Shown here piece after piece: positions 32,706 to 48,024 of a stretch of 64,000 nucleotides of DNA. Origin of the DNA: Pseudomonas frederiksbergensis (GTDB taxonomy: Bacteria > Pseudomonadota > Gammaproteobacteria > Pseudomonadales > Pseudomonadaceae); NCBI RefSeq assembly GCF_001952935.1, contig NZ_CP018319.1, positions 2,159,501-2,223,500 on the forward strand, given 5' to 3'. The notes under the pieces were generated by a model, which saw only the letters and a program-made list of their open reading frames with translations, searched no databases and had not been told where the DNA came from. A program made the position numbers and the translations under genes. The first letter of the stretch is position 1, and every line of letters begins with the position of its first letter.

Positions 32706-32832
32706 AAAGTCCTCATTCACCGCTCATCGGGCGGCGTGGTTCAAGGAAAATGCGGCGGGGAGGCAACTACGGCAGCATGCGATGATCGACTGCCACAGCT
32801 TTCCCGACCACAGAGAAAATTCCGTTTGAAGC

Positions 32833-44178: not shown

Positions 44179-44508
44179 TCAGGGTTTGCCGGAGTTCGGG
44201 CCTTGCGTTCGTCCGCTTTCCCAGCTGCCACGTTTCTTGGCTCGATCATAAACAGCGCTGCGCTCACGCTTACCCACCGCCACCACGGAAACGACTACAC
44301 GCTCATCAATAACCTCATACACCAACCTGTACCCCGATGACCGCAGCTTGATTTTGTAGCAGTCAGGCATTCCATGGAGTGAATCTGAGGGCACTCGCGG
44401 GAGTTCAAGTCGCTCTGCCAGTTTCTTTTTGAATTGCTCGCGCAATGTATGACCCAGTTTGTCCCACTCCTTGCGTGCAGACGGCAGGAATTCGAGCTTA
44501 TAGGTCAT
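44179..44508 (-). CDS. relE: RelE-family mRNA interferase toxin
   Basis: A 109-residue RelE/ParE-superfamily toxin: opening MTYKLEFLPSARKEWDKLG, then LHGMPDCYKIKLRSSGYRLVYEVIDERVVVSVVAVGKRE, in which the basic residues used for ribosome-dependent mRNA cleavage are conserved. A C-terminal extension of about 20 residues after KRERSAVYDRA is longer than E. coli RelE. It overlaps the antitoxin gene by 11 bases. Confidence 0.92.
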   Translation of the reverse strand: MTYKLEFLPSARKEWDKLGHTLREQFKKKLAERLELPRVPSDSLHGMPDCYKIKLRSSGYRLVYEVIDERVVVSVVAVGKRERSAVYDRAKKRGSWESGRTQGPNSGKP

Positions 44509-44743
44509 CCAGATTTACCGGGACCGGCGTTTCATGCCTGCGCGAGCGAACGATTTCTGCCAATTCAAGGTCATCGAGGCGTTCCATCATGGCCTCGAAA
44601 ACATCGGCCGGGACCATGTAGCCCATTACTCGATTGTGATTCAGCACTGCAACGGGCCCACCATGGGCGCCGCTCAAAACCGCAGATGGGTTTTTCTTCA
44701 GCTCAGACACACTGACAGCCAGGTCGGCCAGAACATTTTGCAT
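44498..44743 (-). CDS. relB: Phd/YefM- or RelB-type antitoxin
   Basis: An 81-residue antitoxin. The opening VLADLAVSVSELKKNPSAVL then GPVAVLNHNRVMGYMVPADVFEAMM is the Phd/YefM DNA-binding fold, and the acidic C-terminal LELAEIVRSRRHETPVPVNLDDL should wrap the toxin. It is first in the operon, so antitoxin precedes toxin. The symbol relB follows common annotation for this pairing; by fold it is nearer Phd/StbD. Confidence 0.9.
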   Translation of the reverse strand: MQNVLADLAVSVSELKKNPSAVLSGAHGGPVAVLNHNRVMGYMVPADVFEAMMERLDDLELAEIVRSRRHETPVPVNLDDL

Positions 44744-47260: not shown

Positions 47261-47289
47261 TTGTTCCGGTCCGAAGCCGGGTCTAGTCT
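47261..47289 (+). promoter_or_regulatory. candidate promoter for the DUF6124-type gene leader
   Basis: TTGTTC and TAGTCT separated by 17 bases. The predicted transcription start near 47296 would coincide with the first hairpin of the leader. Confidence 0.45.
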
Positions 47290-47295
47290 GGCTTT

Positions 47296-47544
47296 GTCAC
47301 TGAATAAACGGTGACACGGACGTGCAAGTCCGGGTAAAAGCACCATCAATACCTAGCCTATAGGCATTCATCGGGCGTTCTGTGCTCGTTGTCTTCGCTT
47401 TATGGCGGCTGTGTGCGGGAGATCTTCGGGTCTGCCGAGGTTTTGATGGTGGTCTTCCTACTCGGTCTTGCACCCCGCACATAGCTGCCACCTTTATTCG
47501 CGTGCAAGCGAACTGGTTCAGCTTCCCATTTTGAGGAAACTACT
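47296..47544 (+). ncRNA. strongly structured 5' leader of the DUF6124-type gene
   Basis: Nested complementary arms can be read by eye: GTCAC/GTGAC hairpin (47296-47315); CGGAC/GTCCG hairpin with loop GTGCAA (47317-47332); palindrome GCCTATAGGC near 47356; a 17-bp long-range stem with two GU pairs, 47403-47419 with 47474-47490, enclosing a cTTCGg tetraloop hairpin (47420-47433) and a GCCGAG/CTCGGT stem (47434-47439 with 47461-47466); then TTCGC/GCGAA with the same GTGCAA loop (47497-47512). Near the start codon TTCC (47523-47526) can pair with the GGAA of the ribosome site GAGGAA, hiding it. The leader has no open frame of note. It behaves like a cis-regulatory RNA, riboswitch-like or a processed small RNA. 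Structure is deduced from one sequence; no comparative support was possible. Confidence 0.65.
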
Positions 47545-47928
47545 ATGTTCAAGCCTACGCCTAATCCACCAGATAACTCTGGTGCCCCGTCCGAAGATCC
47601 ACTCGAAGCCGAAAAACTCAAAGAAGCCGCCGACCGCGCCTTCGCCCACTACTTCCCCCCGACCACCGAAAAGCCGCCCAGGCACCGCAAAGGCCACCTC
47701 TTCACCGTCGCCCCCGAGGTCAACACCGAAACCCTGCTGGCCAACGCCGCCGAAGACCTGCTGTCCATCAGCGCCATCGCGGCCAATCTGGCAGACGAAG
47801 TGGACGGGACACGGCGCTCCGTAGCCCTGGCGCTCAGCCGCATGGCCGATGGCGTGCAGTTGCTCGTAGAGCGAGTGCAGGATCATTGGGATGAGTCGGA
47901 GGTCATGCAGGCTCGGGTCAAGGTTTAG
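47545..47928 (+). CDS. DUF6124-type small protein
   Basis: A 127-residue soluble protein. The opening MFKPTPNPPDNSGAPSEDPL then EKLKEAADRAFAHYFPP and, later, FTVAPEVNTETLLANAAEDLLSISAIAANLADEVDGTRRSVALAL is a pattern I recognise from DUF6124/DUF3077-like proteins that occur several times per genome in fluorescens-group Pseudomonas. Function unknown. The ribosome site GAGGAA is 6-7 bases from ATG and may be sequestered by the leader upstream. The protein is mostly helical with a flexible Pro-rich start. Confidence 0.82.
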   Translation: MFKPTPNPPDNSGAPSEDPLEAEKLKEAADRAFAHYFPPTTEKPPRHRKGHLFTVAPEVNTETLLANAAEDLLSISAIAANLADEVDGTRRSVALALSRMADGVQLLVERVQDHWDESEVMQARVKV

Positions 47929-47959: not shown

Positions 47960-48024
47960 TTCGCGAGCAAGCCCGCTCCCACAGGGGACCGCATTCCAAC
48001 TGTGGGAGCGGGCTTGCTCGCGAA
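47960..48024. repeat. REP family B inverted pair (copy 7)
   Basis: TTCGCGAGCAAGCCCGCTCC left and its complement right, just after the DUF6124-type gene. Confidence 0.9.

Follow-up and report, generated by a model that had tools for sequence, protein, structure and literature searches.

The antirepressor operon of the phages P1 and P7 is icd/ant. In both phages, C4 is an antisense repressor that is processed by RNase P and whose loops, a' and b', pair at target messages (PMC5320573). In Weinberg et al. 2010, both C4 and c4-a1b1 are listed for phages, together with Proteobacteria for the former and gamma-Proteobacteria for the latter (PMC2864571). Among bacteria, 21 C4-like Group 1 sRNAs are reported to be expressed and processed in one genome of Acinetobacter baumannii (PMC5320573), C4 of Burkholderia cenocepacia is reported to share a transcription unit with an isrK-like leader (PMC4603805), and for IsrK, activation of anrP translation in trans has been reported (PMC4825925). 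The C4 RNA family and its phage mechanism are thus already known.

Here, we describe a chromosomal C4 locus of Pseudomonas. It lies in the window, the whole 64,000-nucleotide stretch of DNA that we analyzed, and the folded RNA before its gene is a C4 antisense RNA, not a new kind of leader. The RNA matches RF01695, a family whose definition also includes processing by RNase P to a free RNA of ~77 bases, across the whole model (1-87) and above the cut-off of 45 bits. The original prediction had held this RNA to be undescribed unless an Rfam family covered the leader; RF01695 does cover it, and that claim falls. The gene behind is of DUF6124 type, as proposed, with 84.3 bits against a Pfam cut-off of 27. 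P1 also carries RF01695 and, by eye, has the same order of parts: -10, leader hairpin, a1, b1, C4, a2, b2 and gene. Its -10 is TATAGT, and its ATG lies 47 bases after C4, compared with 49 in the window.

Table 1. Parts of the C4 cassette, in window coordinates.
Feature	Position	Strand	Basis
Candidate promoter TTGTTC-17-TAGTCT	47261-47289	+	sequence; -10 in register recurring before C4 leaders
c4-a1b1-like leader (RF03163, below cut-off)	47283-47336	+	26.3 bits, E 1.4e-4
Leader hairpin TGTCACTG...CGGTGACA	47295-47316	+	predicted fold
a1 GTGCAAG	47322-47328	+	exact complement of a' 47467-47473
b1 CACCATCAATACC	47341-47353	+	12/13 positions complementary to b' 47439-47451, by eye
C4 antisense RNA (RF01695)	47398-47495	+	67.3 bits, fold, covariation
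C4 stem I	47403-47419 with 47474-47490	+	17 bp, predicted fold
b' region	47439-47459	+	47439-47451 matches b1; 47448-47459 matches b2, one bulged C
a' CTTGCAC	47467-47473	+	complement of both a1 and a2
a2 GTGCAAG, a' target downstream of C4	47502-47508	+	sequence
b2 AGGAAACTACT, ribosome site and spacer, b' target	47534-47544	+	pairing across loci
DUF6124 gene, 127 aa, ATG start	47545-47928	+	PF19619

The 300 bases from 47261 to 47560 fold at -115.2 kcal/mol, compared with -94.2 kcal/mol for shuffled sequences (SD 5.1, z -4.10), and none of 200 shuffles folded as well, in line with the strong structure originally claimed before the gene. The long-range 17-bp stem of that claim is stem I of C4, with 17 of 17 pairs standard and two G-U pairs among them, and the cUUCGg hairpin that it encloses is stem II. 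Two points of the claim held in part. The pairs of the 17-bp stem are standard, but the stem is not in the minimum-energy fold: the lowest-energy predicted fold of the leader (-99.9 kcal/mol) has upstream a1 and b1 paired to the C4 loops, whereas forcing the stem gives -96.0 kcal/mol. The ribosome site, thought to be hidden by the last hairpin, is paired only in part in the predicted fold. The two mutually exclusive folds, ~4 kcal/mol apart by these modeled energies, suggest a switch. Stem I begins with GG, as at the cleavage site described in PMC5320573.

The three-stem fold of C4 is retained by compensatory change. Across 52 Pseudomonas C4 sequences, 96.6% of alignment cells were paired, falling to 33-44% when structures were slid along the alignment, and 125 cells carried double changes against a shuffle mean of 31.8. 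Double changes were seen in 14 of the 27 pairs of the fold, with 5/5 in stem II, 1/5 in stem III and 8/17 in stem I, where the original prediction had looked for them. The most variable part of C4 is the loop of stem III, which in the window carries b'.

The candidate -10 that had been proposed, TAGTCT at 47284-47289, sits in a register that recurs across C4 loci. A pattern search for the hairpin motif matched 83 of 116 Pseudomonas C4 loci, and the key -10 positions in these were T 57, A 66 and T 66 (n = 83; the first match was used, and some placements of the -10 may be wrong). By eye, hairpins resembling the leader hairpin of the window are found in sister cassettes and in P1.

We found 16 C4 matches in the genome that contains the window, 15 of them above cut-off; the remaining one (L016, 41.5 bits) was excluded from all counts for this genome. 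At each of the 15 loci, a small open reading frame starts 46-54 bases past C4, with ATG in 14 and TTG in one (L008). Eight of these frames encode DUF6124, one DUF3077 (L002) and six a protein without a family, and by position 8 of the 11 DUF6124 matches in this genome lie behind C4. C4 was present in 54 of 59 sampled Pseudomonas genomes, this one included, and above cut-off in 53, with 0 to 54 copies per genome, 1002 in total, and 10 or more copies in 37 genomes. The same 59 genomes hold 690 DUF6124 matches, with DUF6124 present in 47 and DUF3077 in 45. Copy counts of C4 and DUF6124 correlate (Spearman 0.88), in genomes that are related and with kinship uncorrected, such that neither this correlation nor the permutation figures given below represent independent events. 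Elsewhere, C4 occurred in 18 of 274 genomes of a class-wide sample, counting our own, with 1-6 copies in the other 17, and in 29 of 194 genomes of an order-wide sample, in which a second genus of this family reached 14 copies. From these low counts, we take the great expansion of C4 seen here to be one of Pseudomonas and its close kin. As the filters were stricter in searches over 40 genomes, the true copy counts may be higher.

The association also holds when approached from the protein. Of 40 DUF6124 loci from other Pseudomonas genomes, 32 have C4 upstream, as do, by a sequence-only profile, 68 of the best 80 of 335 DUF6124 loci from named Pseudomonas genomes; no upstream C4 was found at the other 8 and 12. 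This profile recovers 128 of 142 known C4, and all 14 misses are outside Pseudomonas. The 40 protein-first loci, like 40 of the C4-first loci, were picked by hand from the best-scoring matches listed and spread over genomes, and are not a random sample. Thus, leader and protein do form a repeated cassette, as had been suspected. Among the eight of 40 loci without a C4 found, one (L105) retains a c4-a1b1 match of 41.8 bits, below cut-off, and another (L076) retains, by eye, a leader hairpin and a GTGCAAG element, whereas no trace of leader parts was seen at the remaining six. L105 and L076 are possible cases of natural escape from C4 control.

The idea that DUF6124 always follows the leader did not hold. 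Pfam assigned 29 of 63 proteins behind C4 to DUF6124, 7 to DUF3077 and 4 to Bro-N, so that 23 have no match provided that no protein was assigned to two families. The 63 come from 69 C4-first Pseudomonas loci, less six (L020, L039, L041, L125, L132 and L151) in which our rule gave no start codon. DUF3077 is related to DUF6124 by profile alignment (95.3%, E 2.1e-8). Six small proteins of 90-107 aa behind C4 in our genome (L001, L004, L009, L012, L013 and L015) were aligned as a single set, although for three of them identity to L001 is as low as 22-27%. By profile, the set is not linked to DUF6124 (0.3%), and the proteins of L001, L009, L012 and L013 had no match in Pfam, PHROGs or NCBIfam. The window protein itself is predicted by AlphaFold2 to be mainly a helical hairpin (pLDDT 86.1, pTM 0.52). 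Its model had 0 Foldseek matches in the PDB and 0 among viral models at E up to 0.001, and its sequence had no match in PHROGs, NCBIfam or PADLOC. A tblastn search with it returned one phage record (EU982300, 39% identity) and no match among plasmids.

Many top-scoring Pseudomonas C4 copies (L018, L024, L030 and similar) are followed by proteins of 52-57 residues that share the pattern NPS...RA...ALAAL.A.SSL..RL.RYN. Downstream of C4 at L024 come a 52-residue frame, then a DUF3077-like gene (PHROG 36471, as is that of L002), then a gene that matches phage primase families weakly. At another locus, one Bro-N protein behind C4 matches PHROG anti-repressors. The gene order at L024, the Bro-N proteins behind C4 and the profile alignment of DUF6124 with DUF3077 together make a phage early operon the likely source of the cassettes.

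Complementarity of b' to the downstream ribosome site, a trait of C4, is found across loci and is modest for the window alone. Among 1000 shuffled targets, 2 equalled the a1 duplex of the window, 11 the b1 duplex, 44 the b2 duplex and 49 the a2 duplex, and the match at b2 has a longest perfect run of 5, extended through a bulge and G-U pairs. The window is thus a weaker example at b2 and a better one at b1 and a1. For the 15 loci of this genome, no more than 5% of shuffles equalled the duplex at b2 in 8, a2 in 4, b1 in 5 and a1 in 11. At L014, the loop has no convincing match at b2 (longest run 4, with 400/1000 shuffles as good), whereas a2 still matches (20/1000).

Such single-locus shuffles are weak because a long loop set against a segment of 24-75 bases gives low energies by chance. 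We therefore compared the pairing of each loop with its own target to its pairing with the targets of other loci, with coding-sequence segments as a negative control. Identical loops were counted once and short flanks dropped, which reduced 116 Pseudomonas loci to 97 (b') or 94 (a'), the 68 loci of named genomes to 41 or 37, and two sets from outside the genus from 26 to 25 (b') and from 24 to 23.

C4 loops, as a population, prefer the target of their own locus. For the 97 unique Pseudomonas loops, b' paired with its own ribosome-site segment at -16.76 kcal/mol and with others at -11.13 kcal/mol (z -22.8), a preference matched by none of 5000 permutations; the own site ranked first for 22 loops, in the top 5% for 50 and above the median for 93. 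Pairing of a' with the upstream segment gave z -22.3, a' with a2 z -12.1 and b' with the upstream segment z -10.2, with a stronger signal for b2 and a1 than for a2 and b1. The b' preference recurred in the named Pseudomonas genomes (41 unique loops, z -9.3) and outside Pseudomonas (z -11.0 for 25 unique loops and -8.8 for 23), and among the 15 loops of our genome (z -7.7, rank 1 in 7). The negative control, four tests on two coding-sequence segments, gave z of 1.2, -1.1, -0.3 and -0.4. In the roughly 25 bases before the start, the longest perfect complement averaged 7.46 for own and 4.29 for mismatched pairs, and reached at least 7 at 67 of 93 own loci against 3.9% of mismatched ones. In the same scoring, the C4 loop of P1 ranked its own ribosome site 1 of 144, with its own a2, b1 and a1 at 16, 52 and 45 of 144; the scoring is thus sharp for b2 and blunt for a2, b1 and a1. 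For 8 of the 15 C4 of our genome, that of the window included, some foreign ribosome site pairs as well or better, and orthogonality within the genome is therefore partial.

The gene upstream of the window cassette encodes a Band_7 protein, which we take to be a slipin. In 17 genomes with a Band_7 protein at least 96% identical, our own included, the Band_7 gene is followed by a C4 cassette of matching orientation in five and by another C4 cassette in reverse in one; in the other 11, C4 was not found within 1.5 kb of the Band_7 gene. The five same-site cassettes have a1 and a' in common and differ in b. The loop is GATGGTGGTCTTCC in the window, CCTAAACAGT in G046, G053 and G049, which have ACTGTTTAGG at b1 and b2 (with one change in b1 of G049; G046 also has one change in a2), and TTGGTCTGGC in G058, with GTCAGACCA before the start. 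Between G046 and the window, Band_7 is 100% identical over 251 residues and DUF6124 is 87% identical.

Loop and targets also change together among DUF6124 loci at large. Of 108 DUF6124 protein pairs with an identity of 90% or more, 61 have loops that are at least 5 edits apart; in 50 of these at b2, 55 at b1 and 44 at both, own pairing was better than swapped pairing by >2 kcal/mol, compared with 21 of 61 in a coding-sequence control. At 80% identity, 208 of 309 pairs differ in loop, with 170 at b2, 176 at b1, 147 at both and 76 in the control. A control rate of about one third means that the criterion is loose, and the evidence therefore lies in the excess and not in the raw count, which was made in frame on 70 of 73 loci, with pairs that share loci and are not independent. 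Judged from these sequences, the loop can differ between close relatives, in some cases at a shared chromosomal site, with both targets altered in step.

The surroundings of the window cassette show three further features. A Phd/YefM antitoxin and ParE toxin pair lies at 44179-44743 on the minus strand, and a gabT RNA (RF01738, 66.9 bits, cut-off 45) at 32751-32812, also on the minus strand. Directly behind the DUF6124 gene, at 47960-48024, there is an inverted repeat, GCGAGCAAGCCCGCTCCCACAG / CTGTGGGAGCGGGCTTGCTCGC, presumably of the Pseudomonas REP kind; similar repeats were seen behind two or more of the same-site cassettes, among them L233 and L238.

We think it likely that 47296-47928 form one transcription unit of leader, C4 and DUF6124 gene, and that an excised C4 pairs with a2 and b2 and blocks translation of DUF6124. 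C4 would be cut from the transcript, on its 5' side by RNase P as reported for P1, and a' would then pair with a2 and b' with b2 over the ribosome site. The upstream a1 and b1 may pair with the C4 loops in the second fold of nearly equal energy, which would hold C4 inactive; alternatively, a free leader RNA with a1 and b1 could mop up C4. As parallel cassettes each have their own loop and matching targets, each C4 should mainly control its own gene, and C4 in the window probably silences the gene directly behind it.

C4 might instead never be freed, with the a1/b1 fold and the C4 fold gating the ribosome site in cis, much as in an attenuator. The small energy gap between the two exclusive folds would suit this, as would a start codon 49 bases after C4, but C4 is reported as a processed RNA in P1 and Acinetobacter baumannii (PMC5320573). 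C4 also retains a fold of its own, and its loops are complementary to the ribosome site, as would fit an antisense RNA that acts separately; we consider control in cis alone unlikely, while giving it some weight. Action mainly on messages elsewhere, whether phage antirepressor genes or sister cassettes, is improbable in our view: the own target is favored in each b2 comparison, and loop and own targets change together. Consistent with such action, foreign ribosome sites are equal or better by energy for 8 of the 15 C4 of this genome, and Bro-N proteins behind 4 of 63 C4 copies place such targets in the genus.

Compensatory stem changes and the concerted change of loop and targets point to ongoing selection, which makes it very improbable that the cassette is a decaying prophage remnant with no present function. 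Copy numbers of up to 54 argue the same way, as do the 11 neighbors that we scanned, among which there is no phage gene, although a toxin-antitoxin pair is included. A remnant would accord with the phage origin of known C4 systems, with the 11 of 17 genomes that have near-identical Band_7 genes and no C4 found, and with the leader parts retained without C4 at L105 and, by eye, L076. We give almost no credence to a previously undescribed riboswitch or protein-binding leader, the suggestion of the original prediction. The strong structure is what one would expect of it, but the loop of stem III, where a ligand pocket should be conserved, is the most variable part. A riboswitch or new leader was rejected as a candidate, given an existing Rfam family above its cut-off.

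For antisense control of the adjacent gene, the findings name a likely regulator and its targets for DUF6124 and DUF3077, families that are common in Pseudomonas, and for C4 annotations elsewhere that have no target, the ribosome site of the next gene should be the first place to look. The many loop-target pairs that occur in nature also offer ready material for work on the evolution of antisense specificity and on how it is kept distinct from copy to copy. More speculatively, and we think rather doubtfully, a genome may hold dozens of private C4 locks whose code is under changing selection, with the proteins as a phage-sensing or counter-phage repertoire. Each cassette would silence one small protein, and loop and both targets would be swapped between relatives; the pressure could come from incoming phages or satellites that use C4, with the C4 or leader RNA of an invader matching a host cassette and setting it off or being blocked by it.

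In the open-licence literature that we searched, no paper on DUF6124 was found and DUF3077 appeared only in a listing. A link between C4 and DUF6124 was likewise not found there, supplements aside, which is weak evidence of absence, nor were targets of multicopy chromosomal C4 with concerted switching of specificity; the main text of PMC5320573 does not contain the term DUF. Among the described systems, A. baumannii Group 1 resembles Pseudomonas in having many C4 copies per bacterial genome, with varied targets suggested and, in the portions of that paper at hand, no ribosome site of an adjacent gene named (PMC5320573). The isrK-C4 unit of B. cenocepacia is like the window in that leader and C4 share one unit, as the order of parts suggests here, but it is listed as a single copy, and the available text of the report names no DUF6124 (PMC4603805). 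IsrK-orf45-anrP of Salmonella Gifsy-1 and CI/seqA/seqC of P4 also combine a leader, an antisense RNA and a downstream target (PMC4825925). Unlike the former, the window has no isrK match (RF01394; 47100-47620, E up to 1), and sister Pseudomonas cassettes match isrK below its cut-off. The c4-a1b1 family shares with the window a leader and target copies upstream of C4, but the window copy falls below its cut-off of 46.7 bits, a threshold passed by 13 of the 40 DUF6124 loci taken from other Pseudomonas genomes. Unlike C4 of P1 and P7, the window cassette is chromosomal and lies between host genes, has DUF6124 as its likely target where those phages have the antirepressor operon, and belongs to a genus with many parallel copies that differ in their loops. 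The 11 scanned neighbors are of host type (Band_7, NfeD, NYN, efflux and others), apart from the toxin-antitoxin pair. From the DUF6124 target and these neighbors, we conclude that the cassette probably works like a phage C4 system, but is not one.
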